From Bacteroidales bacterium (lineage in GTDB: Bacteria; Bacteroidota; Bacteroidia; Bacteroidales; UBA932), in assembly GCA_017471025.1 (NCBI GenBank), contig JAFUWX010000038.1:1-59955 (forward strand): DNA of 59,955 bases. The letters are read 5' to 3'. Both the position numbers and the translations under genes were made by a program. This document shows positions 1,332 through 17,696 of this stretch, piece by piece (positions within the stretch are counted from its first letter, which is position 1; the number at the start of each line of letters is the position of its first letter). The notes beneath the pieces were generated by a model. The model searched no databases, had not been told where the DNA came from, and worked only from the letters and a program-made list of their open reading frames with translations.

Positions 1332-2594
1332 ATGACCCGAAAACTGATAACCCTGCTGGCAACGGCCTTGCTGGCCCTTGCCTGTACGACAGAAAAAGCC
1401 CCGCATGCGGCGTGGACCTATGACGCCGTTCTGTATGAAGTCAATGTCCGCCAATTCTCCGAAGAAGGCGGTTTCCAGGCTGTAGAAGCCGCTTTGCCGC
1501 GGCTCAAGGAGCTGGGCGTCGATATCCTGTGGCTGATGCCGGTCTATCCCATCGGCGAAGCCGAGCGGAAGGGGAGCCTGGGCTCCTACTACGCCGTCAA
1601 GGACTATCAGGACGTCAATCCGCAGTTCGGCACGATGGCCGACTTCGAGAGCCTGCTCGCCGCTACCCATGCGCAGGGCATGAAGCTGATCCTGGACTGG
1701 GTGCCGAACCACACCGCTCCGGATCATCGCTGGATAACGGAACATCCTGATTATTATAAACTTGATTCGCTTGGCCGGCCCACTTTCGACGCCGACTGGA
1801 ACGATACCCGCACCCTGAATTATGCCAACCCGGCCGTACCCAAGGAAATGGACAAGGGCTTGCGTTTCTGGCTGAAAAAGGGCGTGGACGGCTTCCGCTG
1901 CGACATGGCCGGCATGGTGCCGACGACGTATTGGGAGTGGCAGATTCCCGCCATCCGCAAGGATTATCCGCAGTGCTTCTGGCTGGCTGAGGCGGAAGAT
2001 GCCGCCCTGTCCGACCCGGCGACGACCTTCGACGCCACCTATTCCTGGGAATTGCACCACCTGCTGAACGACGTGGCCCAGGGCAAGAAACCGGCGCAGG
2101 ATATCCGTGCCTATATCGAAAAAGACAAGACGAATACGCCTGCGACGGCCTTCCGGATGATGTTTACGACCAACCACGACGAGAACAGCTGGGCCGGAAC
2201 GGAATTCGAGCGGATGGGCCTGGCGAACCGCGTCATGGCCGTCCTTTGCTTCACCCTGCCCAAGGGCCTGCCCCTGATTTATACGGGACAGGAAATCGGC
2301 TGGGACCATCGCTTCCTGTTCTTCGAAAAGGACCCGGTGACGGATTGGACATCGAACACCTTTACCGCTTTCTATCAAGAACTTACGGCGCTTAAGCATG
2401 CCCATCCCGCCCTCGCGGCCGGCGAGCGGGGCGGTCAGGCCGAGTGGCTGGAGGGCTACCCGGAGGGTGTGCTGGCCTTCCGTCGCAGCAGCGGCGACGA
2501 TGCGGTGACCGTCATCGCCAACCTCACTCCGGATGCCCAGGCCCTGCCCGATGGACGGAGCCTTGAGCCGTGGGGCTATATTATTGAAAATTAA
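1332..2594 (+). CDS. GH13 alpha-amylase-family lipoprotein
   Basis: This is a 420-residue alpha-glucan-active enzyme of family GH13. The signal peptide ends in a lipobox with Cys18, so it is a lipoprotein, probably on the outer membrane. All four conserved GH13 regions are visible: DWVPNHT (122-128), GFRCD (187-191, with the nucleophile Asp191), an EAE stretch with the likely general acid Glu220, and TNHDEN (280-285, with the transition-state Asp283). At 420 residues it is compact, consisting of the TIM barrel and a short C-terminal beta domain. It is followed after 36 bp by the tandem fimbrillin/SusE-F lipoproteins, with no terminator between, so it probably heads that transcript. It would cut alpha-1,4 or alpha-1,6 glucans at the cell surface; exact specificity is not determined. 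Confidence 0.92.
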   Translation: MTRKLITLLATALLALACTTEKAPHAAWTYDAVLYEVNVRQFSEEGGFQAVEAALPRLKELGVDILWLMPVYPIGEAERKGSLGSYYAVKDYQDVNPQFGTMADFESLLAATHAQGMKLILDWVPNHTAPDHRWITEHPDYYKLDSLGRPTFDADWNDTRTLNYANPAVPKEMDKGLRFWLKKGVDGFRCDMAGMVPTTYWEWQIPAIRKDYPQCFWLAEAEDAALSDPATTFDATYSWELHHLLNDVAQGKKPAQDIRAYIEKDKTNTPATAFRMMFTTNHDENSWAGTEFERMGLANRVMAVLCFTLPKGLPLIYTGQEIGWDHRFLFFEKDPVTDWTSNTFTAFYQELTALKHAHPALAAGERGGQAEWLEGYPEGVLAFRRSSGDDAVTVIANLTPDAQALPDGRSLEPWGYIIEN

Positions 2595-2630: not shown

Positions 2631-3830
2631 ATGAAAAAAGTGATTTTTGCTGCGGCCATTGCCGCACTCGCGCTGGTCGGCTGCAACAAGGCCGAAGGCC
2701 CTGCCCAGACCGGGCTGCGTGAAGTGAAATTCTCCATGGAAAATTTCGCGACTTATACTGTGAAGGCGAATGCCATCACCGATGCCGAACCTGCCCAGGT
2801 AGGTATCTTTGCAGCAGACCTTGGCGCTGACAATATCGCCGCCACCGTCGGGGCCGGTACGCTGTCTCCCGCTACAAAGATTTATTGGGGTGCAGACCAG
2901 ACGGCAGCTTCCACGTTTGTCGCTTACTATCCGTATGCTGCCGGCCGCACGGTCGATGCCGCTGCATTCATCCCTCCGTACAATCAGAACAGCAACGAGG
3001 TGGATTTCAGCATGTACGACAACTTCCTCACGGCAGTGAAATCCGCCAGCCCGGCTGATGACAACGTTTCTTTTAAATTCACCCACCCGTTTGCCAAGCT
3101 CCGTCTGACGATTGACAACCAGTTGGGCGCCGATGTCGTGGACTATATCAAGATTTCCGGCGTTAAGCTCGCCTCGGCCATCGACATCAGCACCGGTACG
3201 ATTACGCTGGCTGCGGAAGCCACCGACCAGTATGCCCGCCCTGTCACGGCGAACGTCACCTATGAGCTCGTCCTTGTCCCTCAGACGGCTTCTCCTACGG
3301 TTGAGGTCCATACTGTTCAAGGCTCAGTCTATGTTTTCGCGATCAACAGCGCCTATACCTTCACGGCCGGTGCTGTGGGCGTAGCCACTCTCACGCTTAC
3401 CAATGCTTCTTCCGGTACGGCCGGCCTCACCGCTACCAATTTCGCACTCGACCTTACCGAAGCGGCCTGGACGGATGGTACTGCTGCTTCTTTTGCAGAC
3501 CCCGTTGCGACAGTCAGCGATAATTACTGGTATGTCATCGGCACGATCAACGGCTCTAACTGGGATATGGATTATCCGATGGTCATCCAGAGTGACGGTG
3601 CCTGGAAGATTACGCTTAACTATACCGAAGGCCAGGTCTTCAAGATCCGCCAGGCCAAGGCTTGGGACAACAATTATGGCCACAATGGAACGGCGACGCT
3701 TCCGCTTGGTGAGGATTATACCCCGACTAAGGGTGGGGAAGGCAATAACTTCCAGTTTGCTGCCACCGGTGTCTATGACATCTATTTCCATCCTTCCGAG
3801 CCGAAGATTTATGCTGCCGTTCACGAATAA
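2631..3830 (+). CDS. Fimbrillin-like / SusE-F fusion lipoprotein A (one module)
   Basis: This is a 399-residue lipoprotein with a signal peptide and lipobox LVGC (Cys18). Residues about 30-250 resemble the fimbrillin-like family (FimA/Mfa type, Pfam Mfa_like_1). They carry the family's features: a beta-rich core, a YYPYA segment and a HPFAKLRL stretch corresponding to the conserved H-x-L-x-K-L of fimbrillins. Residues about 295-399 form one SusE/SusF-type starch-binding module, starting at YWYVIGTINGSNWD and including the VFKIRQ strand. In known SusE/F proteins such modules bind starch at the cell surface. It is the first of five consecutive fusion genes. Domain calls are from recognition of family patterns; the fusion itself is seen directly. 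Confidence 0.8.
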   Translation: MKKVIFAAAIAALALVGCNKAEGPAQTGLREVKFSMENFATYTVKANAITDAEPAQVGIFAADLGADNIAATVGAGTLSPATKIYWGADQTAASTFVAYYPYAAGRTVDAAAFIPPYNQNSNEVDFSMYDNFLTAVKSASPADDNVSFKFTHPFAKLRLTIDNQLGADVVDYIKISGVKLASAIDISTGTITLAAEATDQYARPVTANVTYELVLVPQTASPTVEVHTVQGSVYVFAINSAYTFTAGAVGVATLTLTNASSGTAGLTATNFALDLTEAAWTDGTAASFADPVATVSDNYWYVIGTINGSNWDMDYPMVIQSDGAWKITLNYTEGQVFKIRQAKAWDNNYGHNGTATLPLGEDYTPTKGGEGNNFQFAATGVYDIYFHPSEPKIYAAVHE

Positions 3831-3851
3831 ACTATTATTTTGAAAGGAACC

Positions 3852-5087
3852 ATGAAAAAGATATTTGCAATCGCCCTCGGCGTACTCGCCCTGGCAGCCT
3901 GTAACCGCGAAGCTGCGCCGCAGCTCGCCCAGAAAGGCGACGTGGTGAAATTTACCACCCGGATGAACAATTATGTCGTCAAGGCAGGGGAGACCGCCCT
4001 GGAAGGCAAGACCGTCCAGATTATCGCCGGCACCCCGATCGAGGCCGTTTCCGCCGCCACCGTGGCCGGTGAGGCCCTGACCCTCACGACTCCTATGCAC
4101 TGGCTCAAGGACCAGACCGAAGCCACCACCTTCGCCGCCGTCTATCAGCGCGAAGGCGACACTCCGACGACCCTGTCCGTGCCCTATGCTATCGACAATG
4201 ACGACCTGGACTTCCATGGCAGCTATCTGACCGCCGTGGCCAAGGATGTCACCCCGGGCAATGAAGTCACCCTGAACTTCAAGCACCCCTTCGCCAAGCT
4301 GACCGTCAGCGTGACCAACAACCTCGAAGGCACCCCGGCCATCAGCGCCCTCACCTTCGACGGCCTGGTCATTGAAGGTACGATCGACCTGGCCGCCGAC
4401 GCCGTCGAGCTGACCGGCGACGCCACCACCGTGGCCCCTGTCGCCCAGAATGACGGCTCCTACCAGGCCATCCTCCTCCCGCAGACCGCCAAGCCCGTCC
4501 TGCGCATCACCGCCGGCGAGAAGAACTTCGCCTTCGCCCTGCCTGCCGCCGTGGCCTTCGAGGCCAACAAGGCTTACACCGTGGCCGTCGCCCTGACCGA
4601 GAGCACCCCTGTCATCGAGGATGGCGAAGAGGTCACCTTCGGCTTCACCGTAGCCGATTGGTCCGAGGCCGATGCTCCGCTCGCCTATGAAGATGTCACC
4701 GACGCATGGTATGTATCCGGTTGCGTCTATGCCGGCGCCACCGCTCCCGCAGCCGCCTGGGGTGAGGACATTCCGATGGTCAAGGGCACCGACGGCAAAT
4801 ACAGCGTCACCGTCACCTATGACGAGGCCCTCGCCGGCGAAGACGACTCCGCCAAGGGCTTCCTGGTCCACAAGGTCGGCTATACCGAGAAATACGGCGC
4901 ATGGGCCAATTCCCCGCGCGTGAACCTGTCCTGGGGCAGCTATGGCCTGACCGCTACGGACGGCGTCAACATCCTTCTCTGCACCGTCACCGGCGAGGCT
5001 CCGGACGATGTCTGGACCCCGTATGCCGGCACTGTGACCATCACCGTCAATCCGGCCGACGGCCAGATGACCTGGACCACTGAATAA
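3852..5087 (+). CDS. Fimbrillin-like / SusE-F fusion lipoprotein B (one module)
   Basis: This is a 411-residue lipoprotein. The start at 3852 was chosen over a TTG 12 bases upstream because an AAAGGA sequence precedes it and because the resulting N-terminus (MKKIFAIALG) matches the neighbouring paralogue exactly in style. Lipobox Cys17. Residues about 25-245 are a fimbrillin-like domain with the HPFAKLTV block. Residues about 270-411 form one SusE/F-like module starting at AWYVSGCVYAG, with an extended insertion. Its N-terminal domain is close to that of the next gene (shared ETALEGKTVQ segment). It lies 21 bp after gene A and 18 bp before gene C, consistent with co-transcription. Confidence 0.78.
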   Translation: MKKIFAIALGVLALAACNREAAPQLAQKGDVVKFTTRMNNYVVKAGETALEGKTVQIIAGTPIEAVSAATVAGEALTLTTPMHWLKDQTEATTFAAVYQREGDTPTTLSVPYAIDNDDLDFHGSYLTAVAKDVTPGNEVTLNFKHPFAKLTVSVTNNLEGTPAISALTFDGLVIEGTIDLAADAVELTGDATTVAPVAQNDGSYQAILLPQTAKPVLRITAGEKNFAFALPAAVAFEANKAYTVAVALTESTPVIEDGEEVTFGFTVADWSEADAPLAYEDVTDAWYVSGCVYAGATAPAAAWGEDIPMVKGTDGKYSVTVTYDEALAGEDDSAKGFLVHKVGYTEKYGAWANSPRVNLSWGSYGLTATDGVNILLCTVTGEAPDDVWTPYAGTVTITVNPADGQMTWTTE

Positions 5088-5105
5088 CCTATAACACGAA
5101 AAAGT

Positions 5106-6653
5106 ATGAAAAAGTTTTTTGCAATCGCATTGGGCGTCCTCGCTCTGGCATCCTGCGCCCGTGAGGCCGCTCCTGTCAAGGTGGAAGGCTCCCGCGAGGT
5201 GAAGTTTACCACCAACGTCAACACCTTCACCATGAAGGCGGGCGAAACCGCCCTCGAAGGCAAGACCGTCCAGGTGCTGGCCGGCTCTCCGCTCAACACC
5301 GGATCCGCCGCGACCGTGACCGGTACCACCCTGACCCTGACCAACAAGATGTATTGGCAGGACGGTCAGACCGCCAACACCACTTTCGTGGCTATCTATC
5401 CTGGTGAAAACCAGACGACTACCACCATTCCGAACTATCTCATCACCGACGATTTCGCCTACCATGCCAACTTCATGACCGCTACGGCCAAGGACGTGGC
5501 TCCGGAGACCACCGTCGCCCTGAACTTCAAGCACCCCTTCTCCAAGGTGGTCGTGAATGTGACCAACAACCTGACCGGCACCCCGGCCGTGACCGGTGTC
5601 GCGCTCGAAGGCGTTGTCATGAGCGCTGACCTCGACCTGGCCGCTGAGACCCTGACCCTGGGTAACGACAAGGTGAACGTGGGCGCAGCCGCGCAGGAAG
5701 ACGGCAGCTTTGCCGCCATCATCATGCCGCAGACCGTCCAGCCGGCCCTGGTCGTCACCGTCGGTGAGACCGCCTACCGCTTCGTCCTGGCCGAAGAATT
5801 CACCTTCGTCGCGAACAAGGCTTACACCGCCGCCGTCACCCTCGAAGACGGCACGACGCCCGTCGAAGAAGGTGGCGAGGTCGCTTTCAACGTGGACGTG
5901 ACCGACTGGGAGGATGCCTCCGAGGCCCTTCCGTACGTCGCCGAACAGGAGCAGCCGCTGCCTGTCACCGAGCTCTATCTGCTGGGTGAGGGCTGCGACG
6001 CAGGCTGGAGCATCGACGCCGCCCTGCCGCTGACCCAGGAAGGCAACGTGTTCTCCCTCACGACCAACCTGTATGCGAACAAGATTTTCCGCTTCCTGGC
6101 CCATAAGGAGTCGAATGCCTGGTTCCCCGCCGTCGTGAAGTCCAAAATCGATGGCAAGGCCGTCTATTGCGCCTCCCAGGAAGAATGGGATGCCAATTCC
6201 GCCGAGAATTATGACCACTTCACCGTGGCCGAAGACGGTGTGTATGACATCGCGGTGGATATCGCCGCCAAGACCGTCACGCTGACCCGCAAGGGCGACC
6301 TGCCGAAGGCCACCTGGTATGTCATCGGTGACGTCTATACGGATGACGAGACCGTTGTCGCATGGTCCACGGACTTCCCGATGACCGAGGTCGAGGGCGT
6401 CTGGACGATTACGATCAACGTCCGCAGCGAGTTCAAGCTCCGCGCCTACGCCGAGGGTACGGCCGACGCTGCCAAGTGGAACACCCAGCTGGGTATGTGG
6501 GCCTCCGACAGCAATACCTATATGGATGTAGCCAACACCTATGTCCTGGCCGATAATAGTACCGGCAAGGAGAACAAGAACATAGCTTTCGCCGAAGCCG
6601 GCCAGTACAAGCTCGAACTTAACGGCACCGAACTGGCTGCTACCAAACTCTAA
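5106..6653 (+). CDS. Fimbrillin-like / SusE-F fusion lipoprotein C (two modules)
   Basis: This is a 515-residue lipoprotein with lipobox Cys17 (ALASC). A fimbrillin-like domain spans about residues 25-250. Two SusE/F-type modules follow: one from TELYLLGEGCDAGW (about 288-400) and one from TWYVIGDVYT (about 402-515). The two-module C-terminal half, 5949-6653, is repeated without insertions or deletions in the next gene at 8229-8933, with only scattered substitutions. This points to recent duplication or gene conversion. It is predicted to sit on the outer membrane surface and bind alpha-glucan. No catalytic motif is seen. Confidence 0.8.
   Translation: MKKFFAIALGVLALASCAREAAPVKVEGSREVKFTTNVNTFTMKAGETALEGKTVQVLAGSPLNTGSAATVTGTTLTLTNKMYWQDGQTANTTFVAIYPGENQTTTTIPNYLITDDFAYHANFMTATAKDVAPETTVALNFKHPFSKVVVNVTNNLTGTPAVTGVALEGVVMSADLDLAAETLTLGNDKVNVGAAAQEDGSFAAIIMPQTVQPALVVTVGETAYRFVLAEEFTFVANKAYTAAVTLEDGTTPVEEGGEVAFNVDVTDWEDASEALPYVAEQEQPLPVTELYLLGEGCDAGWSIDAALPLTQEGNVFSLTTNLYANKIFRFLAHKESNAWFPAVVKSKIDGKAVYCASQEEWDANSAENYDHFTVAEDGVYDIAVDIAAKTVTLTRKGDLPKATWYVIGDVYTDDETVVAWSTDFPMTEVEGVWTITINVRSEFKLRAYAEGTADAAKWNTQLGMWASDSNTYMDVANTYVLADNSTGKENKNIAFAEAGQYKLELNGTELAATKL
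5949..6653 (+). repeat. Two-module coding repeat, copy 1
   Basis: This 705-bp block has the same length as, and is collinear with, 8229-8933 at an exact offset of 2280 bp. Differences are scattered single bases apart from the last about 30 bases, which diverge more. It encodes the last two SusE/F modules of gene C. Confidence 0.9.
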
Positions 6654-6665
6654 AATGCTTAGGTT

Positions 6666-8933
6666 ATGAAGAAAATATTTGCGATTTCGCTTGCCTTGCT
6701 CTCCCTCGCGACCGTTTCCTGCCGCCGCGGTGAGCTTGCGCCGCAGCGCCCGACGGACGCTGTCCAGTTCAGCGTAGCCATGAACACCTTCGACGTGAAG
6801 GCTACGGACAATGCTTTCGAGGCTGGTGATGCCGTCGGCATCTTCGCCGGCACGCCCATCGACGCCGCCAATGTGAAGGGCACCATTTCCGGGACGACCC
6901 TCACCCCTGAAACCGAAATCAAATGGGTGGAGAACCAGACGGCCAACACGAAGTTCGCGGCTTATCTGCCCTACGATGCCGCCCGCACTTCCGCGGCCTT
7001 CAACTTCGCCGTAAAGGCCGACCAGAGCGCCTATGCGGACTACCAGGCTTCCGACCTGCTGGCCTCCACCGTGACGGCCGCTCCGCGCACCACCGTGGCC
7101 TTTGCGATGAAGCATCAGCTGACCAAACTCATCGTCATCCCCACCTGTGAGGACGAAGCCGAGACGGTCACCGATGTCACCGTCCAGGAGCTCGTGACCG
7201 ATGCCTCCGTCGATCTGATGGCCGGAACGGTCGCAGCCGGTACCGCCAAGGGGACCGTCAAGGCCGGCGCCGCCGTGGAAGGCAATGGCGGACAGGGCTT
7301 TGCCGCAATCCTGGTTCCGCAGACCGTCCAGCTCAAGCTGACCGTCACGACCTCCGCCGGCCGCAGCGTCGAATACGCCCTGGCCGAGGCCAAGGCCCTC
7401 GCTTCCGGCAAGGCTTACAAGGCGGAAATCACCGTCAAGAAAGCCAGCGTGGAGCCCGGTCCTGAGACCCCCGTTGAATTCACGATCAGCATCATCGACT
7501 GGGAAGCCGGCGAAGACCTCAGCTTCGTCAACCCGGACGAAGAGGTCAACCCCAACGCCGGGAAGTGGTCTGTCATCGGCAAGCTGAACGGTACGGACTG
7601 GGACACCGACTTCTGGATGGAAGAGACCTCCGAAGGGGTCTGGGAAGTGGATATCACCTATGCCGAGGGCGACAGCTTCAAGCTCCGCCAGGATGGCAAA
7701 TGGTCCACGGAGACCGAGGCCCACGCCGAGGCCGGCATGCCGGCCGAAGCAGAGGGAACCGTTCCTGTCGATGGCACCGAATATGGGCTTTGGGGCACGG
7801 CCAACAAGGACATCACGCTCCCGGCCGCCGGCGAATACCACCTCAAGTTCGTCGTCGATGGTTATAAGTTCTATGTGACCTCCAACGCGGCCCCTGCCGG
7901 TCCCGAGGTGAACGAACTGTATCTGCTGGGCGAGGCGACCGACGCCGGTTGGAGCCTGGACGATATGCCTGCGCTGACCCGGTCCGGGAATACGTTCTCC
8001 ATCACTGCCAACCTCAAGGCGAACGCCAAGTTCCGCTTCCCCCTGCAGAAGGCGCCCAATACGTGGTGGCCTTGCCTGGTCCGGGGTGATACGGACGGTA
8101 CGGTCAAAATCGGTACCGGCGACGCCAACGATGCCGACCAGTTCACGGTGGCCGAGGACGGCTCCTACGAGATTGTCATCGACGTGGCGGCCATGACGAT
8201 CGCCATGACCCGTGTCGGCGACCGCGTGGAGCAGCCGCTGCCTGTCACCGAGCTCTATCTGCTGGGTGAGGGCTGCGACGCCGGCTGGAGCATCGACGCC
8301 GCCCTGCCGCTGACCCAGGAAGGCAACGTGTTCTCCCTCACGACCAACCTGTATGCGAACAAGATTTTCCGCTTCCTGGCCCAGAAGGAACCGAATGCCT
8401 GGTACCCTTCCGTCGTGAAGTCCAAAATCGATGGCAAGGCCGTCTATTGCGCCTCCCAGGAAGAATGGGATGCCAACTCCGCCGAGAATTATGACCACTT
8501 CACCGTGGCCGAAGACGGCGTGTATGACATCGCGGTGGATATCGTCGCCAAGACCGTCACGCTGACCCGCAGGGGCGACCTGCCGAAGGCCACCTGGTAT
8601 GTGATCGGCGACGTTTATACCGATGACGAGACCGTTGTCGCATGGTCCACGGACTTCCCGATGACCGAGGCCGAAGGTGTCTGGTCCATCACGATCAACG
8701 TCCGCAGCGAGTTCAAGCTCCGCGCCTACCCCGAAGGTACGGCCGACGATGCCAAGTGGAACACCCAGCTGGGCATGTGGGCTTCCGATACCAATACCTA
8801 CATGGATGTGGCTAATACCTATGTCCTGGCCGATAATAGTACCGGCAAGGAGAACAAGAACATAGCTTTCGCGGAAGCCGGTCAGTATAAACTCGAACTC
8901 AACGGTACTACCCTCTCGGCGACGAAACTGTAA
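6666..8933 (+). CDS. Fimbrillin-like / SusE-F fusion lipoprotein D (four modules)
   Basis: This is a 755-residue lipoprotein with lipobox Cys19 followed by two arginines. Residues about 30-260 give the clearest fimbrillin-like domain in the set: FEAGDAVGIFAGTPI near 55, a DQSAYADY segment near 120, then MKHQLTKLIV. Four SusE/F-type modules follow, from KWSVIGKLNG (about 300), NELYLLGEATDAGW (about 418), TELYLLGEGCDAGW (about 528) and TWYVIGDVYT (about 642). Module 2 is almost identical to module 2 of gene E. Modules 3 and 4 are almost identical to the pair in gene C. The gene therefore looks like a mosaic of neighbouring genes. It probably acts as a multivalent glycan-binding surface protein. 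Confidence 0.82.
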   Translation: MKKIFAISLALLSLATVSCRRGELAPQRPTDAVQFSVAMNTFDVKATDNAFEAGDAVGIFAGTPIDAANVKGTISGTTLTPETEIKWVENQTANTKFAAYLPYDAARTSAAFNFAVKADQSAYADYQASDLLASTVTAAPRTTVAFAMKHQLTKLIVIPTCEDEAETVTDVTVQELVTDASVDLMAGTVAAGTAKGTVKAGAAVEGNGGQGFAAILVPQTVQLKLTVTTSAGRSVEYALAEAKALASGKAYKAEITVKKASVEPGPETPVEFTISIIDWEAGEDLSFVNPDEEVNPNAGKWSVIGKLNGTDWDTDFWMEETSEGVWEVDITYAEGDSFKLRQDGKWSTETEAHAEAGMPAEAEGTVPVDGTEYGLWGTANKDITLPAAGEYHLKFVVDGYKFYVTSNAAPAGPEVNELYLLGEATDAGWSLDDMPALTRSGNTFSITANLKANAKFRFPLQKAPNTWWPCLVRGDTDGTVKIGTGDANDADQFTVAEDGSYEIVIDVAAMTIAMTRVGDRVEQPLPVTELYLLGEGCDAGWSIDAALPLTQEGNVFSLTTNLYANKIFRFLAQKEPNAWYPSVVKSKIDGKAVYCASQEEWDANSAENYDHFTVAEDGVYDIAVDIVAKTVTLTRRGDLPKATWYVIGDVYTDDETVVAWSTDFPMTEAEGVWSITINVRSEFKLRAYPEGTADDAKWNTQLGMWASDTNTYMDVANTYVLADNSTGKENKNIAFAEAGQYKLELNGTTLSATKL
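7917..8224 (+). repeat. Single-module coding repeat, copy 1
   Basis: This 308-bp block matches 10203-10510 at a constant offset of 2286 bp with about four base differences by eye. It encodes the second SusE/F module of gene D. Confidence 0.9.
8229..8933 (+). repeat. Two-module coding repeat, copy 2
   Basis: This is the second copy of the 705-bp block at 5949-6653. It encodes modules 3 and 4 of gene D. About 13 residues differ over 235, several of them in pairs close together. Confidence 0.9.
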
Positions 8934-8945
8934 GGAGCGCATTGT

Positions 8946-10865
8946 ATGAGAAAGTATTTAGCAATAGGCCTCGTATTCTTGTCGTTGGCGGCAGTCTCCT
9001 GCCGCCGCGGCAAGATGAATCCCGAGTACCTGCCGAAAGCGCAGGACGTGTCCTTCTCCGTGGAGATGAACACCTTCCGCACGGGCAGCAAAGCGACCGA
9101 CGCGGCCTTCGACAATGGCGATCTCCTCGGCATCTTCGCCGGCGCCCCCATCGGGCAGGCGAATGTGAAGGGAACCGTTTCCGGAACGGCCCTGACCCCG
9201 TCCAGTCCAATCCAGTGGCTGGCCGGACAGACTGAAGAGACCACCTTTGCCGCGTACTATCCGTATAGCGCTTCTGTCAGTGGGCAAAGTTTCTCCTTTG
9301 CCGTAAAGACCGACCAGTCCACCTACGCCTCCTACCTGGCCTCCGACCTGCGCGGGGCGGTGACGACGGCTGCGGCCGGCACGCCCGTGACCTTCAGCAT
9401 GCAGCACCTGCTGTCCAAGCTGGTGGTCGTCCCCACCTGCGAGGATGCCTCCGAGACGGTCACCGAGGTGACGGTCCGCGAGCTCGCCACCCAGGCGACG
9501 GCCGATTTGACCACCGCCTCCGTGGCGGTCGGTACGGCGAAGGCCGACGTGAAGATGGGAGCGGCTGAATCCGGTAACGGCGGGAAGGGCTTCGTGTCCA
9601 TCCTGGTGCCGCAGGCGGTGCAGCTGCAGCTGGCCGTGACCACCTCCAAAGGTCGGACGCTTCCTTTCAGCCTCACGGAGCCTGCGACACTCGCCTCGGG
9701 TACGGCTTACCTGGCCGAAATCACGGTGGCGGCGGGCTCCACACCAGTGCCGGCTACCCCGGCCGAATTCACGATCAGCATCATCGACTGGGGCAGCCCG
9801 GAAGACCTGACTTTCCTCGCCGATGATACCTATGATGAATTCACCCAAGGGAAGTGGTCCGTCATCGGAACGGTCAATGGAACCAACTGGGATTCAGATG
9901 TTTGGATGACGGAGACGGAGAGCGGCGTATGGGAGGTGGACATCACCTATCCGGCCGGCGGCGCCTTCAAGCTCCGTCAGGACGGCAAGTGGTCCACCGA
10001 GACGGAAACGCATAACGAAGCCGGCCAGCCCGGCGATGCGACCGGCCCGGTTCCCGGTGACGGCACGGAGTACAATCTCTGGGCTACCGACAACATCGAC
10101 ATCACCCTGCCTTCGGCCGGCGAGTATCACCTGAAATTTGTCGAGGAAGGCTATCTGTTCTATGCGACGCTGACCAGCGAGCCGGCGCCGTCCATCAGCG
10201 AGCTGTATCTGCTGGGCGAGGCGACCGACGCCGGTTGGAGCCTGGACGATATGCCTGCGCTGACCCGGTCCGGGAATACGTTCTCCATCACCGCCAACCT
10301 CAAGGCGAACGCCAAGTTCCGCTTCCCCCTCCAGAAGGCGCCCAATACGTGGTGGCCTTGCCTGGTCCGGGGTGATACGGACGGTACGGTCAAAATCGGG
10401 ACCGGCGACGCCAACGATGCCGACCAGTTCACGGTGGCCCAGGACGGCTCCTACGAGATTGTCATCGACGTGGCGGCCATGACGATCGCCATGACCCGTG
10501 TCGGCGACCGTATCGAGCAGCAGGTGGCCATTGACGAGCTGTATCTGCTGGGTGGCGCGACCGATACCGGCTGGGATTTGGACAAGATGCCTGCGTTGGA
10601 GAAATCCGGCCAAGTATTTACCATTACCGCCCACCTGAAAGCCGGTACATTGGAAAGCAATGAAGTTTTCCGTTTCCCGATGCAGAAGGTTGCGAACAAA
10701 TGGTGGCCTTGCCTGGTCAAGGGATCTTCCGAAGGGAAGGTGATGGTCGGCACCAGTGACGGGGATCAGTCCCGCCAGTTTACGGTCGATACCTCAGGAA
10801 CGTACCTGATTACGATAGATGTGGCTGCGATGACGATATCCATCGTCCTGCAGACGGCAGACTAA
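8946..10865 (+). CDS. Fimbrillin-like / SusE-F fusion lipoprotein E (three modules)
   Basis: This is a 639-residue lipoprotein with lipobox Cys19 followed by two arginines, as in gene D. The fimbrillin-like domain spans about residues 30-265 (FDNGDLLGIFAGAPI near 57, a DQSTYASY segment near 122, MQHLLSKLVV). Three SusE/F-type modules follow, from KWSVIGTVNG (about 303), SELYLLGEATDAGW (about 418) and DELYLLGGATDTGW (about 528). Module 2 is almost identical to module 2 of gene D. The gene ends 20 bp before a strong terminator that closes the first transcript of the locus. It is probably surface-exposed and glycan-binding, with no enzyme motif. Confidence 0.82.
   Translation: MRKYLAIGLVFLSLAAVSCRRGKMNPEYLPKAQDVSFSVEMNTFRTGSKATDAAFDNGDLLGIFAGAPIGQANVKGTVSGTALTPSSPIQWLAGQTEETTFAAYYPYSASVSGQSFSFAVKTDQSTYASYLASDLRGAVTTAAAGTPVTFSMQHLLSKLVVVPTCEDASETVTEVTVRELATQATADLTTASVAVGTAKADVKMGAAESGNGGKGFVSILVPQAVQLQLAVTTSKGRTLPFSLTEPATLASGTAYLAEITVAAGSTPVPATPAEFTISIIDWGSPEDLTFLADDTYDEFTQGKWSVIGTVNGTNWDSDVWMTETESGVWEVDITYPAGGAFKLRQDGKWSTETETHNEAGQPGDATGPVPGDGTEYNLWATDNIDITLPSAGEYHLKFVEEGYLFYATLTSEPAPSISELYLLGEATDAGWSLDDMPALTRSGNTFSITANLKANAKFRFPLQKAPNTWWPCLVRGDTDGTVKIGTGDANDADQFTVAQDGSYEIVIDVAAMTIAMTRVGDRIEQQVAIDELYLLGGATDTGWDLDKMPALEKSGQVFTITAHLKAGTLESNEVFRFPMQKVANKWWPCLVKGSSEGKVMVGTSDGDQSRQFTVDTSGTYLITIDVAAMTISIVLQTAD
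10203..10510 (+). repeat. Single-module coding repeat, copy 2
   Basis: This is the second copy of the 308-bp block at 7917-8224, encoding the second SusE/F module of gene E. Confidence 0.9.
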
Positions 10866-10885
10866 GGTTGTCTTGTAAAAGATTT

Positions 10886-10921
10886 CGCCGCGGGCCCCAG
10901 AAGGACCCGCGGCGATTTTTA
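10886..10921 (+). terminator. Intrinsic terminator after the fusion-gene array
   Basis: A perfect 9-bp stem, CGCCGCGGG at 10886-10894 and CCCGCGGCG at 10906-10914, is followed by ATTTTTAT. It separates the five fusion genes upstream from the SusE/F-SusC-SusD transcript downstream. Confidence 0.9.
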
Positions 10922-10931
10922 TCCTGATTCC

Positions 10932-10962
10932 TTGCTTATTTCATAATTTGTTTATATTTTTG
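10932..10962 (+). promoter_or_regulatory. Promoter of the SusE/F-SusCD operon
   Basis: TTG at 10932-10934, a 20-bp spacer and TATTTTTG at 10955-10962 form a perfect Bacteroidetes promoter. It leaves a leader of about 75-80 bases before the next start codon, so translation-level control is possible there. Confidence 0.8.
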
Positions 10963-11045
10963 TCGCAGTATGTATGAACATACTATTCCGTTTATTGGAC
11001 AAATAATAGGAAAATAAACACTAAGAACTTAAATATCACATGATT

Positions 11046-12545
11046 ATGAAAAGATTTGCTTTGTCTTTATTATTGGCCCTGGGCGCGCTCTCTGCGCTGA
11101 CAGGCTGCAAGAGCAATGACCCGGAGAAGAAGCCGGAGCCCAGCGCCGATCCTTCTGAGCAGGGCAAAACGCCCACTTCGCTGGCAGATGTCTCCACCAT
11201 TTATATTTATGGTAGTGCGACGGAAGCCGGCTGGGATCTTTCCCAGGCGATGGAATTCACCGACAATGGAGGCGGCCTGTATTCCTGGCAGGGCTATCTG
11301 GCCGCAGGAAGCCCGTTCCGTTTCCCGCTCCAGAAGACCGCCGAATGGCCTTGTCTGATGCTGGAAGAGGGCGAGGAAGGCCCCGAATTGATTTTCGGCA
11401 AGTCGGAAGAGGACCTGGTCGTCTATACCGTCACCCCGTCCGGCACCTATGACATCGTCATCGACGCCCGTGACGTGAACCATCCTTCGGTCAGCGTAGA
11501 TTTGGTCAGCATTGACCTTAATGAACTGGAAATCACCGAATTGTATATGCTCGGCGAAGCCTGCCCGACCGGTTGGGCCCTGAACATGATGGAGGCCTTC
11601 ACCAACAACGACGGCGTCTTCACCTGGGAAGGACCGCTCCAGGCTGGCAAACGTTTCCGCTTCCCGCTGCAGAAGATTCCCGATCCGCCGCAGTGGTGGC
11701 CTTGCCTGATGCTCGGGGAAAACGGCAAAGTCCTTTATGGCATGGGCGACGAGGATGAATCGAACGTCCCCGTCAAGGAAGACGGCGTGTATCTCCTGAC
11801 CATCGATACCCGCAACCGCGACAATATGACCTGGACCATCGAGCTGAAGTCCGCCGGTCTGCCCGACCCGGAAATCACCGAACTCTACCTGCTGGGCGAT
11901 GCCGCTCCCGGTGGATGGGCGCTGGATGCCGCGCCGGCATTTGAAAACAACGACGGCGTCTTCGTCTGGGAAGGCAAACTCCGCGCGTCTGGCGTGTTCC
12001 GCTTCAATACCACGAACCTGAATTTCTTCCCGGCCATCGTCAAAGATATCGCTACCGGCAAGCCGGTCTATGTCACCGATTGGGACGAGACCCTGTACGA
12101 GCAGTTCTCCGTGGACAAGGACGGCATTTATCAGCTTGTCGTCAATGCGAAGAAGTTCGATGACATCTCCGTTACCATTACCTATGTGGGCGATACGCCG
12201 GTGTCGGAATATCCCATCGAAGAACTGTACCTGTTGGGCGATGCCACCGATGCCGGCTGGTCCATCGATGCCATGCCGGCCTTCGCCGGGGACAAGGGTG
12301 TCTTCACCCTGACGGCCAACCTCAAGGCCACCGGCGGATTCCGCTTCCTGACCCAGAAGGTCGGCGGCATGTTCTTCCCCGCCATCGCCAAGGAAAAAGC
12401 CACCGGAAAGGCGGTCTATGTGGATAATGGCCAATGGGATGATACTGTCTATGAGCACTTTACGGTCGCGACGGAAGGCACCTACGAAATCGTCGTCACG
12501 GCCAAGAAACTCGATGACATTACCGTCACGATAACCCAGAAATAA
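11046..12545 (+). CDS. SusE/SusF-like starch-binding lipoprotein F (four modules, no fimbrillin domain)
   Basis: This is a 499-residue lipoprotein from the start at 11046 (an in-frame ATG also lies at 11040). Lipobox LTGC, Cys21, then a Pro/Glu/Ser-rich linker to about residue 45. Four SusE/F-type modules follow, each opening with the pattern LYxLGxAxxxGW: about 48-165, 166-278, 279-385 and 386-499. Unlike its neighbours it has no fimbrillin-like domain, so it looks like a canonical SusF-type surface glycan-binding protein. It is the first gene after the 10932 promoter and precedes the small peptide gene and fusion G. Confidence 0.85.
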   Translation: MKRFALSLLLALGALSALTGCKSNDPEKKPEPSADPSEQGKTPTSLADVSTIYIYGSATEAGWDLSQAMEFTDNGGGLYSWQGYLAAGSPFRFPLQKTAEWPCLMLEEGEEGPELIFGKSEEDLVVYTVTPSGTYDIVIDARDVNHPSVSVDLVSIDLNELEITELYMLGEACPTGWALNMMEAFTNNDGVFTWEGPLQAGKRFRFPLQKIPDPPQWWPCLMLGENGKVLYGMGDEDESNVPVKEDGVYLLTIDTRNRDNMTWTIELKSAGLPDPEITELYLLGDAAPGGWALDAAPAFENNDGVFVWEGKLRASGVFRFNTTNLNFFPAIVKDIATGKPVYVTDWDETLYEQFSVDKDGIYQLVVNAKKFDDISVTITYVGDTPVSEYPIEELYLLGDATDAGWSIDAMPAFAGDKGVFTLTANLKATGGFRFLTQKVGGMFFPAIAKEKATGKAVYVDNGQWDDTVYEHFTVATEGTYEIVVTAKKLDDITVTITQK

Positions 12546-12556
12546 CACCAAAGACT

Positions 12557-12703
12557 ATGAAATACACGTATTTAGCTCCTGAGGTGGAGCTGCAGACCAT
12601 CCGTATTGAAGATGGGATACTTGCCTTTTCGAAAGGAAAAGGCGGAGCCAATGCGTCGGCCATGAGCCAGGACGACGATTTGTTTGATGATTGGGACTTT
12701 TAA
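12557..12703 (+). CDS. 48-residue acidic peptide, function unknown
   Basis: This is a short open frame of 48 codons placed between two SusE/F genes, 11 bp after the first and 13 bp before the second, in the same direction. The peptide opens with MKYTYLAPEVELQTIRIEDG, continues with ILAFSKGKGG and a small-residue stretch, and ends in a very acidic tail (DDDLFDDWDF). It has no transmembrane helix, signal peptide or cysteine. Short proteins of similar layout (a Pro-Glu-hydrophobic start, a Gly-rich middle and an Asp/Trp-rich end) are, to my recollection, often seen near fimbrillin-like genes in Bacteroidales, but I know no function. Its tight spacing argues that it is real and co-transcribed. 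Confidence 0.6.
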   Translation: MKYTYLAPEVELQTIRIEDGILAFSKGKGGANASAMSQDDDLFDDWDF

Positions 12704-12716
12704 GCGATTGTATAGT

Positions 12717-14762
12717 ATGAAAAAGATATTTGCCTATATCGCCACTGTCGCTATTTTCGCGGCATGTGCCAAAGAAAGCCCCGTTACCCAGGAGCGCCCT
12801 ATTACCCGCCCCCACAGTTCTGGGACCGAGATGATTCTGCACGCCAGCATCCCTCCGATGACGGACGCCACGAAAGCCAATGCCATCGGCTCGTTTACAT
12901 GGGCCGACGGTGACAAGATTGCCATCCCCGTCGAGGGCGGTTATGTCGATTTTACCTTCAGTGAAGCGGACGACGCATTCAAATACACGCTGACCGGCAG
13001 TGAATCTTTCATTGACGGAACCGCCTATTATCCCGCCAATTCGAAGCCCGGCGGAGACTATTCCACCGCGTTTGCCAGTCCCGAAGCGGCCAAGGCCGGC
13101 TTCAAGATGGAGGCTCCCTTTACCGTCGGAAGTGAAGACATCACTTTCACCCACAAGAGCGCCATCATCAAGCTCCACTTCACAGGCGTTCCCACTACGG
13201 CAACGGGCGTCAGGGTGCTGGAAGAGGAAACGGAGATTGCAACCATTGCCCTCAGCAACCCTTCTGCCGATCTGGAGGTGTATGTCCCCATTACACCGAA
13301 TGGCAGCAAGAAATATCGTTTCGCATTGATGCAGTATAACACCGCCCTCAGGGAGGTCGGCAAATCTTCCGTGGCCCTGACCGCGGGTACGTACTACACC
13401 TCCAAGGACATCGCATTCGCCATTTCGGAGCTCTATCTCCTGGGCGGAGCGACGGACAATGGCTGGAGCCTGGAGACCATGCCGCAGTTGACGAAAGAGG
13501 GGAATGTGTTTTCCATCAAAGCGAACCTGACGGCGTATAACAGTGACAACAACAACAGATTCCGCTTCCCCCTGCAGCGAGTAGGCGGTACATGGTGGCC
13601 ATGCCTGGTCAAGGGCGATGCGGACGGGACGGTCAAAATCGGAGACTCCGATTACTATGACGGGGATCATTTCACCGTCAGTGAAGATGGCTACTATCAG
13701 ATAACGATAGATGTCAGTGCCATGACATACACCATCACCCGCCTGGGTAGCAAGCGCTATGAGATTACCGAACTCTATCTCAACGGTGACGCCTGCGATA
13801 CGGGTTGGAATGCCTCAGGCGTAGCTCCGCTGACCCAAGCCGGGAACGTCTTCTCCACTTCCGCCAACCTGTATGCCGGAAAGACCTTCCGTCTCAATAC
13901 CCAAAAAGTGGATTGGTGGCCTGCTATCGTCAAGGATAAAGCTACCGGCGAGCCGGTTTACTGCGCATCGCAGGGTGTATGGGACAACCACAGTACTGTC
14001 TGGGAGCATTTCTCTGTGGCGGAAGACGGTTTCTACGAGATTGTCTTCGATGCTGATGCATGGACCCTGACGCTGACGCGGAAAAATGATATTGCCTTGA
14101 ATGTATCGGATTTGTATCTCATCGGCGACGCGACGGACATCGGCTGGTCCATTACCGATATGCCCCAGTTTACGAAGAATGGCTATGAGTTCACCCTGAC
14201 CGCCCATCTGAAGACCAAGGGCATCTTCCGCTTCCTGACCCAGAAAGAGGCAGGCGTCTGGTACCCTGCCCTGGTGAAGGGTGGAACCACCGGGACCGTT
14301 AAGTATGCTGCGGCAGATGCTACTAACGACGAGCACTTTACGGTGGATAAGGACGGCATTTATCTTATTACGGTCAATACCGGGACAAGAACCTATTCCA
14401 TCACGCTTCAGGAAGAGGTCAATTGGTATGTCGTAGGCAATGTCTATGCTACCGATCCGACGCAAACCGGATGGGACAAAGCGTATGCGGTTCCGATGAC
14501 GGAAACCTCTCCGGGTATCTGGGAAGTGACTGTCAATATTACCGGCGAGTTCAAATTGAGCTGCCACTCCGCTTCTACGGATCTTTGGACCTATGGTAAC
14601 CTGGGCTTGTGGGCAGCCGGCTCTCTCTCTACGGAAATATCCTATGGATTGTTGAGCAACGGCGAAAATATAGGCATACAGACACCGGGACGTTACGCCC
14701 TGAAACTGGAACCGGCCAACACCCAATACGCCAACCTGCTCACCGGTAACAAAATAGATTAA
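12717..14762 (+). CDS. Fimbrillin-like / SusE-F fusion lipoprotein G (four modules)
   Basis: This is a 681-residue lipoprotein. The start at 12717 gives a normal signal peptide with lipobox Cys17, whereas upstream in-frame starts would overlap the small peptide gene. Residues about 35-235 form a fimbrillin-like domain (FTWADGDKIAIPVEGG near 55, then a THKSAIIKLHF block near 138). Four SusE/F-type modules follow, from SELYLLGGATDNGW (about 238), TELYLNGDACDTGW (about 347), SDLYLIGDATDIGW (about 462) and NWYVVGNVYA (about 565). It lies 18 bp before the SusC gene and is the only fusion directly linked to SusCD. It is probably the outer-surface glycan-binding partner of this SusCD pair. Confidence 0.82.
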   Translation: MKKIFAYIATVAIFAACAKESPVTQERPITRPHSSGTEMILHASIPPMTDATKANAIGSFTWADGDKIAIPVEGGYVDFTFSEADDAFKYTLTGSESFIDGTAYYPANSKPGGDYSTAFASPEAAKAGFKMEAPFTVGSEDITFTHKSAIIKLHFTGVPTTATGVRVLEEETEIATIALSNPSADLEVYVPITPNGSKKYRFALMQYNTALREVGKSSVALTAGTYYTSKDIAFAISELYLLGGATDNGWSLETMPQLTKEGNVFSIKANLTAYNSDNNNRFRFPLQRVGGTWWPCLVKGDADGTVKIGDSDYYDGDHFTVSEDGYYQITIDVSAMTYTITRLGSKRYEITELYLNGDACDTGWNASGVAPLTQAGNVFSTSANLYAGKTFRLNTQKVDWWPAIVKDKATGEPVYCASQGVWDNHSTVWEHFSVAEDGFYEIVFDADAWTLTLTRKNDIALNVSDLYLIGDATDIGWSITDMPQFTKNGYEFTLTAHLKTKGIFRFLTQKEAGVWYPALVKGGTTGTVKYAAADATNDEHFTVDKDGIYLITVNTGTRTYSITLQEEVNWYVVGNVYATDPTQTGWDKAYAVPMTETSPGIWEVTVNITGEFKLSCHSASTDLWTYGNLGLWAAGSLSTEISYGLLSNGENIGIQTPGRYALKLEPANTQYANLLTGNKID

Positions 14763-14780: not shown

Positions 14781-17696
14781 ATGTTCCTGAAATCTAAACT
14801 TTTGTCCGCTGTGGCGGCAGTGCTGACGGCACTGCCCGCCATGGCGCAGACAAGGGAAATCAGGGGAACGGTCACAGACAGCGACGGCCTTCCGGTGATT
14901 GCAGCCGGGGTACAGGTCGTCGAGGCCCCGAAAGCGGTGACGGTGACCGGTCCGGACGGCAAGTATGTCCTGGCGCTCTCCGCCGAGCAGGCGAAGGTGG
15001 CCAGGACTATCGAATTTTCCTGCCTCGGGATGAAGTCCGTGACGCTGCCCGTCCCCGTATCGGGGCGGCTGGACGCCGTCCTCGCTCCTGATGCCGAGTC
15101 CCTGCAGGATATCGTGGTGATCGGCTATGGCGCCGTCCGGAAGAAAGACCTCACCGGATCCGTCGTCAACATCACCCAGAAGCAGTTCAACAAGGGTGTC
15201 GTCACCTCCGCGACCGATATGATCGCCGGACAGGTGGCGGGCCTGGTCGTGACCAAGGCGGGCGGCGACCCCACGACGGAAGCCACCCTGCGCCTGCGCG
15301 GAACGACCTCCCTGCTGGGCGGCAACGGGCCGCTGGTCGTCATCGACGGCGTCCCGGGTGCGTCCATGAACCTGGTTTCCCCGGAGGATATTGCCTCCAT
15401 CTCCGTGCTGAAAGATGCCTCTGCCGCAGCCATTTACGGCGCCCGCTCGGCCAACGGCGTGATTATCATCACGACGAAAAAGGGCGAGGAAGGCAAGGCG
15501 ACCGTATCCTATAACGGCTATTTCGCCGTCGAGAAGGCGGAAAAGCTGTTGGACATGATGACGGCCGAAGACTGGCGGGCCTATGTCGCGGAAAACAACA
15601 TCACCAGCGCCATCGACTATGGCGCCAGCACCGACTGGCAGAAGGTGGTCACGCGGCTGGGAAGCTCGCAAAGCCATGGCGTCAGCCTTACCGGCGGCTC
15701 GGGCAAGAGCCAGTATCGGGCCAGCGTCACCTATCTGAACCGCAAGGGTATCATGAAGGAAAACGACCTGCAGCGCTTCAACGCGGACGTCTCCTTCGTC
15801 CAGAAAGCCATCGACGACAGGCTCACGGTGAACTTCTCCTTCATGGGCTCCTACGAAGACTGGAAAGACCTCTCCTACAACGGCGACATCTGGAGTTATG
15901 TCTATAACCTCAACCCGACGGTCCCCGTTTACAACCCGGACGGCAGCTATTTCCAGCTCTTCACCTACATGAATTACAACCCGCTTTCCGAAATCGAGCA
16001 GGTCCACATGGACAAGAGCCGCCACTACAGCCAGGGCCGCCTGGCGGTGGACTTCAAGATCCTGCCCTGGCTCTCGGCCGGCGTGAGCGGCGCCCTGTCC
16101 CGGAACAACTTCATCTCCGGCTACTACACCCCGTCCACGACGGAAACGGGCTTCGCTACCTCCGGACTCGGAAACCGGACGACCAGCGTCTCTAACATGC
16201 GGCTGCTGGAAGCCAATATCACGGTCGACAAAGATATCGATAAGCACCATATCGGCGCCATTCTGGGCTATTCCTGGCAGCAGTATGTCGATGAAAACTT
16301 CCAGGGCACCAACCGGGAATTCACCACCGACGCCTTCGCCTACAACAACCTCAGCACGGGCAACGACCTGCAGGACGGCGACGTGGGCAGCTACAAATCC
16401 TCCTCGAAGCTGATTTCCTTCTACGGCCGGGTCAATTACGACTATGCCGGCCGCTATCTGTTCACCGGTACGCTCCGGAGCGACGGCTCCTCGAAGTTCG
16501 GCAAGAACAACCGCTGGGGCCTCTTCCCGTCGGCTTCCGTGGCCTGGCGCATCTCCTCCGAGCCCTTCATGAAGGGCCTTTCCTGGCTGGACGACCTCAA
16601 GCTGCGGGTCTCCTACGGCGTGACCGGCAACCAGGATATCGGCAACTACCGCACCCTGGCGATTTACGGTCCCTGGGGCTATTATTTCAACAACGGCAAG
16701 TTCTATCCGCAGTATGCCCCGACGCAGAACCCCAATCCCAACCTCCGCTGGGAGAAGACCGCCCAGCTGGATATCGGCCTGGACTACAGCTTCTTCGACG
16801 GCCGGTTGCGCGGTGCCATCGAGTATTACGCCAAGCGGACGACGGACCTGCTGTATGACTATGACGTCCCGGTGCCGCCCTATCAGTACAGCGTCATGAC
16901 GTCCAACGTGGGCGAGGTGTCCAACAAAGGCTTCGAACTCACCATCGCGGGTACGCCGGTCATGACCCGGGACTTCCGCTGGGACGCCAGCTTCAACTTC
17001 GCCCGCAACAGCAACGTCCTCGTGAGCCTCTCGAATGAGCAGTTCCAGCGCGACAAGGTCTATCTGGGCAGCTATTCCATCCGCGGCCTGGCCGAGACCA
17101 CCATCATCCTGGAGGAAGGTCTTCCGCTGGGCACGTTCTACGGCGCGAAATGCCTCGGTGTCGATGAGGACGGCATCCTCCTGTATGAAGATGTCAACGG
17201 CGACGGCAAGTTCGTCTATGCGGACGACCGGACCTACATCGGCTGCGCCCAGCCGGACTTCACCGCCAACTTCAGCAGCCAGTTCAGCTACAAGAACTTC
17301 TTCGCTTCCTTCCTGCTGCGGGGCGTGTTCGGAAACGACGTCATCAACGGTACGTCGCTGTATCTGAGCGATATCAGTCGCTATCCCGGCGAGAACGTGC
17401 TGCGCTCGGCCCTCAAAAAGACCGCCCAGACGATGGTCTATTCTTCCTATTATGTGGAAGACGGCAGTTTCCTGAGGCTGGACAATATCCAGATCGGATA
17501 CAATTTCACCTTCAAGCCGTCCGTCCCCATCCGGAGCCTGCGCCTGTCGCTCACCGCGAACAACCTCTTCAACATCACCCGTTATACCGGTATCGACCCC
17601 GAGGTCAGCCAGAGCGGCCTGGTGTTCGGTATCGACGCACGGGACTATTATCCCAAGACCCGTTCCGTTTCCCTGGGCATGAGTGTATCTTTTTAA
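14781..17696 (+). CDS. SusC-like TonB-dependent outer-membrane transporter (alpha-glucan locus)
   Basis: This is a 971-residue SusC/RagA-family porin. A signal peptide (to about residue 22, ending AMAQ) is followed by a carboxypeptidase-regulatory-like domain (about 25-105). The conserved DIVVIGYGAVRKKDLTGSV block (about 112-130) opens the plug domain, which holds KDASAAAIYGARSANGVI near 213-230. The remainder is the beta-barrel, ending in an aromatic Phe as usual for outer-membrane proteins. With the SusD-like lid encoded 12 bp downstream it imports oligosaccharides across the outer membrane, powered by TonB. Neighbouring GH13 and GH66 enzymes suggest alpha-glucan oligosaccharides as cargo. 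Confidence 0.96.
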   Translation: MFLKSKLLSAVAAVLTALPAMAQTREIRGTVTDSDGLPVIAAGVQVVEAPKAVTVTGPDGKYVLALSAEQAKVARTIEFSCLGMKSVTLPVPVSGRLDAVLAPDAESLQDIVVIGYGAVRKKDLTGSVVNITQKQFNKGVVTSATDMIAGQVAGLVVTKAGGDPTTEATLRLRGTTSLLGGNGPLVVIDGVPGASMNLVSPEDIASISVLKDASAAAIYGARSANGVIIITTKKGEEGKATVSYNGYFAVEKAEKLLDMMTAEDWRAYVAENNITSAIDYGASTDWQKVVTRLGSSQSHGVSLTGGSGKSQYRASVTYLNRKGIMKENDLQRFNADVSFVQKAIDDRLTVNFSFMGSYEDWKDLSYNGDIWSYVYNLNPTVPVYNPDGSYFQLFTYMNYNPLSEIEQVHMDKSRHYSQGRLAVDFKILPWLSAGVSGALSRNNFISGYYTPSTTETGFATSGLGNRTTSVSNMRLLEANITVDKDIDKHHIGAILGYSWQQYVDENFQGTNREFTTDAFAYNNLSTGNDLQDGDVGSYKSSSKLISFYGRVNYDYAGRYLFTGTLRSDGSSKFGKNNRWGLFPSASVAWRISSEPFMKGLSWLDDLKLRVSYGVTGNQDIGNYRTLAIYGPWGYYFNNGKFYPQYAPTQNPNPNLRWEKTAQLDIGLDYSFFDGRLRGAIEYYAKRTTDLLYDYDVPVPPYQYSVMTSNVGEVSNKGFELTIAGTPVMTRDFRWDASFNFARNSNVLVSLSNEQFQRDKVYLGSYSIRGLAETTIILEEGLPLGTFYGAKCLGVDEDGILLYEDVNGDGKFVYADDRTYIGCAQPDFTANFSSQFSYKNFFASFLLRGVFGNDVINGTSLYLSDISRYPGENVLRSALKKTAQTMVYSSYYVEDGSFLRLDNIQIGYNFTFKPSVPIRSLRLSLTANNLFNITRYTGIDPEVSQSGLVFGIDARDYYPKTRSVSLGMSVSF

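Follow-up and report, generated by a model that had tools for sequence, protein, structure and literature searches.

Tandem fimbrillin-type lipoproteins with glucan-binding-type modules in a dextran-type locus of a Bacteroidales bacterium

Type V pili are described in sections of a 2025 review (PMC12632263) as consisting of a tip pilin with a C-terminal ligand-binding domain, a stalk, and an anchor; in Bacteroides, a surface clostripain cuts the N-terminus, and, as far as these sections go, there is hardly any knowledge of the ligands of type V fimbriae. In FimA, according to part of another paper (PMC5954841), the groove is occupied by the protein's own first strand up to the cleavage by Rgp. 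A second point of comparison is the dextran polysaccharide utilization locus (PUL) of Bacteroides thetaiotaomicron, BT3087–BT3090, with its surface glycan-binding protein (SGBP) BT3088. In this study, we analyzed a window of 59,955 nucleotides (contig JAFUWX010000038.1 of assembly GCA_017471025.1, positions 1 to 59,955, forward strand) from a Bacteroidales bacterium, in which seven tandem lipoprotein genes, A–G, are flanked by a glycoside hydrolase family 13 (GH13) gene and a SusC/SusD pair. The products of genes A–E and G start with a fimbrillin domain, followed by one to four carbohydrate-type modules. From the sequence evidence, we give an even chance to the reading that these six proteins are type V tip-pilin-like adhesins for a dextran-type α-glucan.

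Architecture of the array and its probable ligand

A preliminary description of this DNA, made from the sequence alone, had reported six tandem lipoproteins that fuse a fimbrillin domain to binding modules, and our searches bore this out. Gene starts were reset to the lipoprotein methionine, and the number and order of the modules were obtained with custom hidden Markov models (HMMs) built for two module types, a (SusE/F-type) and B. All seven genes lie on the + strand. Genes A (2631..3830) and B (3852..5087) each encode a fimbrillin domain and one B module; in A, these occupy residues ~20–288 and 297–398, respectively. Behind the fimbrillin, the module order is a-B in gene C (5106..6653), B-a-a-B in D (6666..8933), B-a-a in E (8946..10865), and a-a-a-B in G (12717..14762), the N-terminus of which is divergent and fimbrillin-like. 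Gene F (11046..12545) encodes a SusE/F-type lipoprotein of four a modules without a fimbrillin. The earlier estimate of about 19 modules in 12 kb was correct in number (19 over A–G), but not in its assumption that all were SusE/F-type, because 12 are a modules and seven belong to the second type, B.

Pfam recognized the expected fimbrillin family, Mfa_like_1 (PF13149), in A (7.6e-25), B (2.2e-22), C (2.5e-24), D (6.8e-34), and E (4.9e-31), but not in G, for which phmmer against the fetched proteins was not significant either. When the N-termini of G and eight relatives, with signal peptides removed, were compared with the fimbrillin profile, hhalign gave a probability of 97.3% (E 1.9e-11) across 196 columns. 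A reversed control reached 0.2%, and the values for the same G profile against the a module, the B module, and the N-termini of SusE/F proteins were 31% (in an 18-column stretch only), 1.8%, and 0.1%, respectively. At the level of sequence profiles, the N-terminal domain of G is a divergent fimbrillin copy, detected only by profile–profile comparison. Among solved chains in the PDB, the fimbrillin alignment profile matched 3UFI, 4K4K, and 3SY6, and a profile of stand-alone fimbrillins matched 3UFI, 4K4K, and 4EPS. The fimbrillin half of D, searched against the PDB as a single sequence, had no match, although the alignment profile did; the G-type N-termini had no meaningful PDB match. NCBIfam gave no name to any of the nine proteins tried, with sub-threshold matches only. 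The lipobox cysteine was aligned in 82/82 fimbrillin domains, including those of A–E, the starts of the open reading frames (ORFs) having been picked via a lipobox pattern, and gene G has a lipobox by sequence. By Pfam, the fusions have the fimbrillin in place of a SusE-type N-terminal domain, and a profile of the N-termini of nine SusE/F proteins from other families, which we take to be of the immunoglobulin (Ig) type, did not match the array fimbrillin (hhalign 0.5%).

The second expected family, SusF_SusE (PF16411), was found in C (8.9e-07), D, E, F (1.9e-33), and G (9.8e-26), so that SusE/F-type modules are carried by lipoproteins in a SusCD locus. It did not recognize the modules of A and B, which are of type B only. 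The match in C spans one a and one B module, and the B modules are distantly related to the a modules (hhalign 78%). These modules take the C-terminal position of the ligand-binding domain in a type V tip pilin, and binding is predicted for them. The a modules keep an early Trp in 12/12 and an aromatic pair in 11/12 and 12/12, and the B modules keep two Trp columns (7/7 each). An assignment of the B module to carbohydrate-binding module family 26 (CBM26) was rejected, since the CBM26 matches (in a SusG-like GH13 and one fusion) fall outside the B-module matches.

The best solved match of the modules is BT3088, named SGBPdex in the PDB, with 6.1e-10 for the C-terminal modules of D and 1.8e-22 for F. 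The SusC-type transporter (14781..17696, +; identified by Pfam) has its best PDB match in 8AA4 (3.5e-120), the sequence of which is also present in 9SJE and 9SM2, entries holding the dextran SGBP; the next-best SusC match is 2.6e-95. The SusD-type lipoprotein (17709..19202, +; SusD_RagB 1.7e-27) is closest to 3JYS and SusD itself, followed by the 9SJJ/9SJE group. Further downstream lies an enzyme of the dextranase family GH66 (26660..28459, +; Glyco_hydro_66 2.8e-173), and the locus therefore has the GH66, SusC, SusD, and SusE/F-type genes of a dextran PUL. Because the modules match BT3088, the transporter matches a dextran SusC, and a GH66 gene is present, the likeliest ligand of the array is probably dextran. 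The earlier view of glucan-binding-type modules in a GH66/SusCD locus is retained, with dextran as the better reading than starch.

Cleavage position and pilus-type neighbors

We set the position of the putative maturation site by alignment to 4K4K and by the description of FimA/Mfa1 in part of PMC5954841. The residue is K45 in A and D, K44 in B and C, K49 in E, and K53 in G, all except that of D being placed by eye. For the conservation analysis, 82 complete fimbrillin domains from the fetched loci were aligned, the duplicates L022, L024, and L025 having been dropped. In this set of related sequences, found with a profile that itself includes the site residue, the column at D position 45 contains 77 Lys, 3 Arg, and 2 Met (both in L019), i.e., it is basic in 80/82, and it is the sixth most conserved of 254 columns. 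The residue is basic in 47/47 fusions, two of which (in L036 and L042) were aligned at an unlikely Lys, with the likely site a few residues later; this leaves 45/45 clearly aligned fusions with Lys or Arg at the putative cleavage position of a type V tip pilin, in line with the cleavable leader that had been proposed for checking. It is also basic in 13/13 stand-alone fimbrillins, three of which look cut or interrupted, in 20/22 of the others, and, by eye, in 10/10 proteins from seven genomes outside the genus. In A–E and G, the first strand is followed by this basic residue, the pair being mostly Lys-Ala or Lys-Ser. 4K4K reads TRA at the site in a significant alignment, and 3UFI likewise only in a sub-threshold stretch. 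The array's own genome has one C11 protease gene, and its product is a 427-residue lipoprotein by sequence.

Fusions were found by HMM in 24 loci, 22 of them distinct (L022 = L020, L024 = L021), with L018, L036, and L042 falling under the stricter threshold applied here. A DUF3575 gene and an OmpA/DUF3868-like gene stand directly after the fimbrillin genes in nine of the 24 loci (eight of the 22 distinct loci, in eight genomes), which supports the connection with pili drawn in the preliminary description. One of these loci holds the homologue that, at 48% identity, comes closest once the two sister arrays are set aside, and DUF3575 was confirmed by Pfam in 5/5 cases tested. In L052, L053, and L055, the gene row comprises a SusG-like GH13, two fusions, a stand-alone fimbrillin, DUF3575, and the OmpA/DUF3868-like gene. 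Among 71 loci without fusions, accessory genes of this kind were present only in L017, L098, and L099, the last two having been fetched because of DUF3575. We take DUF3575 and DUF3868 genes to be markers of pilus operons, partly as an assumption of ours. In B. thetaiotaomicron, a table in PMC10434189 places genes of both families near an Mfa1-type gene.

A stalk-type stand-alone fimbrillin was not found in the window's array locus; candidates in the same genome are on another contig, C17. There, in the pilus-like locus L017 (C17:42000-52000), five lipoprotein genes bearing TKA stand in tandem, accompanied by one gene with DUF3575 and one with DUF5119; three of the five were tested with PF13149, and one passed. 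The genome also encodes two tip-like proteins in which a fimbrillin is fused to Fib_succ_major (C27; L015, 5504-7114) or to LRR/DUF285 repeats (L016, 4548-7436). Further tandem arrays of fimbrillin lipoproteins (~390–1480 residues), with C-terminal parts largely unidentified, occur in L011 (C102), where a BACON lipoprotein precedes the array, and in L062–L069.

Evolution, distribution, and surrounding genes

In the sister genome RUG14188 (L021), genes A–F are found in the same order, and gene G is not present at that place. When 20 array domains were tested against this genome, 15 had a dN/dS of 0.06–0.23; the remaining five were the a module of C (0.40), the two central modules of D (0.53 and 0.49), the fimbrillin of A (0.33, at a dS of ~1.9), and the module of A, for which no value could be computed. 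The values for SusC, SusD, and GH13 were 0.05, 0.03, and 0.08, respectively. In view of the domain E-values and the low dN/dS, the array domains are not chance matches. Gene A shares 40% identity with the gene at the corresponding place in the sister genome, with dS saturated, and the central modules of D are 56% and 47% identical to theirs. Within the window, the DNA of the first a module of D is 98.4% identical to that of E, and the second is 96.8% identical to that of C. Based on the low dN/dS, the low identity of parts of A and D to the sister locus, and the near-identical modules within the window, the history of the array looks like selection for function combined with apparent gene conversion and cassette replacement.

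The array is preceded by a GH13 α-amylase-type lipoprotein gene (1332..2594, +; Pfam Alpha-amylase 1.6e-40). A terminator-like hairpin with a T-run follows gene E (10885..10920, +; inverted repeat 10885-10897/10903-10915), and GH13-A-E and F-G-SusCD therefore look like separate units. In genome G115 (C29), the GH13-array block is found beyond GH66 in the opposite orientation, and some genes in it are interrupted, so the block seems to move as a unit.

To describe the distribution of the fusions, up to seven candidates per genome were scored in 250 genomes of the genus and up to four per genome in 393 genomes of the order, 390 of which are outside the genus. The fimbrillin-B profile was matched at 1e-12 in 114 genus genomes, and the match spanned both domains in at least 22 genomes, the array's own included. 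Outside the genus, 7/390 matched at 1e-15, and none spanned both domains. The preliminary description had proposed to look for the fusions in other Bacteroidales; within the genomes sampled, the pairing of a fimbrillin with the second module type was found only in this genus. Among the 161 order genomes with a match, 19 supplied 20 SusE/F regions, selected for their long frames; no fimbrillin domain was found in these by HMM, and in one of them, a fimbrillin match was limited to the first 31 residues. A search for the domain pairing in the paper library used found no paper. GH66 scored above the cut-off in 23/250 genus genomes. SusC, SusD, a fimbrillin-free SusE/F protein, and GH66 occur together in 18 of 25 GH66 loci, and one of these canonical dextran-type PULs (L014, C27:80000-92000) lies in the array's own genome. 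Near GH66 in seven of the 25 (L035, L036, L037, L039, L042, L044, and L047) is an a-module protein whose N-terminus aligns with that of G, so G-like fusions repeatedly accompany dextran PULs in the genus.

Downstream of SusCD, the window also contains a ROK-family kinase (19752..20681, +), two cupin glucose-6-phosphate isomerases (at 19204 and at 23319), and a GntR regulator. An 844-residue protein (24162-26696) adjoins GH66; it has weak, sub-threshold matches to six-hairpin glycosidase families and no PDB match, and is possibly a new or distant glycosidase. Between F and G is an ORF of 48 residues (12557-12703, +) with an acidic, Trp-containing C-terminal tail, presumably similar to the small peptides beside Bacteroidota surface operons. 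An open frame of 1872 codons runs antisense to A–D (3324-8942, −) and most probably just reflects codon composition. Of three exact matches to the Bacteroides-type promoter pattern within the window, none lies close to the array.

Weighing the readings and comparison with known systems

If genes A–E and G encode tip-pilin-like adhesins, the products would be exported as lipoproteins, as their lipoboxes indicate; a surface clostripain-type protease would then cut at the basic residue, remove the lipid-bearing first strand, and open the groove, into which a stalk or adaptor pilin would insert its own C-terminal strand. Lacking a C-terminal strand that is free, the fusion would cap the fiber and display one to four glucan-binding modules at its end. 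GH66 and GH13 would cut the captured dextran, and SusCD would import the products. The search of the array's contig gave no additional fimbrillin gene, so the stalk and anchor would be supplied from elsewhere in the genome, with the cluster on C17 as a candidate. Uncut molecules would remain ordinary lipid-anchored binding proteins, and the array would diversify via duplication, gene conversion, and cassette swapping. More tentatively, as an idea to which we give about one chance in three, these proteins could belong to a glycan-foraging type V pilus, in which PUL-encoded tip subunits with dextran- or starch-binding modules hold or reel in polymer for SusCD; in some loci, a SusG-type amylase, a stand-alone fimbrillin, DUF3575, and an OmpA/DUF3868-like gene form one string.

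Several observations weigh against tip pilins. The second accessory gene matches DUF3868 below the Pfam cut-off in 2/7 cases tested, and otherwise has weak OmpA matches. Of the 14 distinct fusion loci without accessory genes, four have <1.5 kb of downstream sequence; the remaining ten, among them the window and L021, have none in the examined stretches, which truncation does not explain, and L018 has none within 5 kb more either. The array's contig (C20) has no further PF13149 match, anchor families not having been searched by name, and no DUF3575 gene was found on it; in the examined stretches of the sister arrays, neither was found. In nine stand-alone fimbrillins, just 9–17 residues follow the last conserved Trp, which gives no sign of a long donor strand; in 4K4K, the number is similar (~13). 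Conservation of the basic residue could have a different cause, and five or six tip proteins per locus would be unusual.

This lack of a further fimbrillin or DUF3575 gene on the contig keeps another explanation close, to which we assign somewhat less than an even chance: the six proteins would be surface glycan-binding lipoproteins that are never cut or assembled, in which the fimbrillin replaces an Ig-like N-terminal spacer or SusC-docking domain, and the number and length of which are tuned to hold large dextran near SusCD. The PUL context with SusC, SusD, GH13, and GH66 fits this, as do gene F, a fimbrillin-free binding protein with the same module type, the fimbrillin-free PUL L014 in the same genome, and the absence of pilus-type genes found beside the array. 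According to part of PMC7618045, the SGBP of the levan utilisome has a lipidated Ig-like N-terminal domain and is in contact with SusC, and, in passages of PMC10936149, BT3088 matters most for large dextran. A spacer would not be expected, however, to conserve a basic residue at the cleavage position or to have homologues with a pilus-type neighborhood in eight genomes. The polymerized or brush-like glycan-capturing fiber of the preliminary description draws on the tandem array and on fimbrillin domains that keep the site residue, but we consider it improbable: the array has no stalk-type gene, and a globular module chain sits at the C-terminus that a polymerizing pilin donates. Because the modules occupy the place of the donor strand, the architecture fits chain-capping tip subunits instead. 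Still less credible is a surface decoy, whose fimbrillin diversifies for antigenic or phage-escape variation, with glucan binding secondary. The 40% identity of gene A to its counterpart, the absence of G from the sister locus, and the replaced central modules of D could be read in this way, but purifying selection acts on most domains, the modules keep their aromatic residues, and the replaced parts of D are binding modules and not fimbrillin, although the fimbrillin of A was replaced too.

If the tip-pilin reading is correct, the array links two hallmark Bacteroidota surface systems, pili and polysaccharide uptake, and cassette exchange would be another route to diversify tip adhesins. It suggests that some gut-type bacteria use pilus-type parts for catching food polymers. 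With tip-like proteins carrying dextran-binding-type modules beside a dextranase-family enzyme, ligand and function are directly testable.

Like type V tip pilins, the fusions combine a lipoprotein signal, an Mfa_like_1-type domain, a basic residue at the maturation site, and a C-terminal binding domain, and their homologues adjoin DUF3575 genes; unlike them, they carry chains of SusE/F-type modules, number five or six per locus within a dextran-type PUL, and were found with neither stalk nor anchor next to them in the window. They share the SusE/F-type modules with BT3088 and SusE/SusF, but differ from these in their fimbrillin N-terminus, their second module type, and the presence of several paralogues rather than one. 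At the level of the locus, the B. thetaiotaomicron dextran PUL (BT3087–BT3090) likewise has GH66, SusD, a SusE/F lipoprotein, and the dextran SusC to which the array's SusC is closest, whereas the array locus adds the GH13-A-E block and has a SusC 30–36% identical to those of the canonical GH66 PULs of the genus, one of which is present in its own genome.

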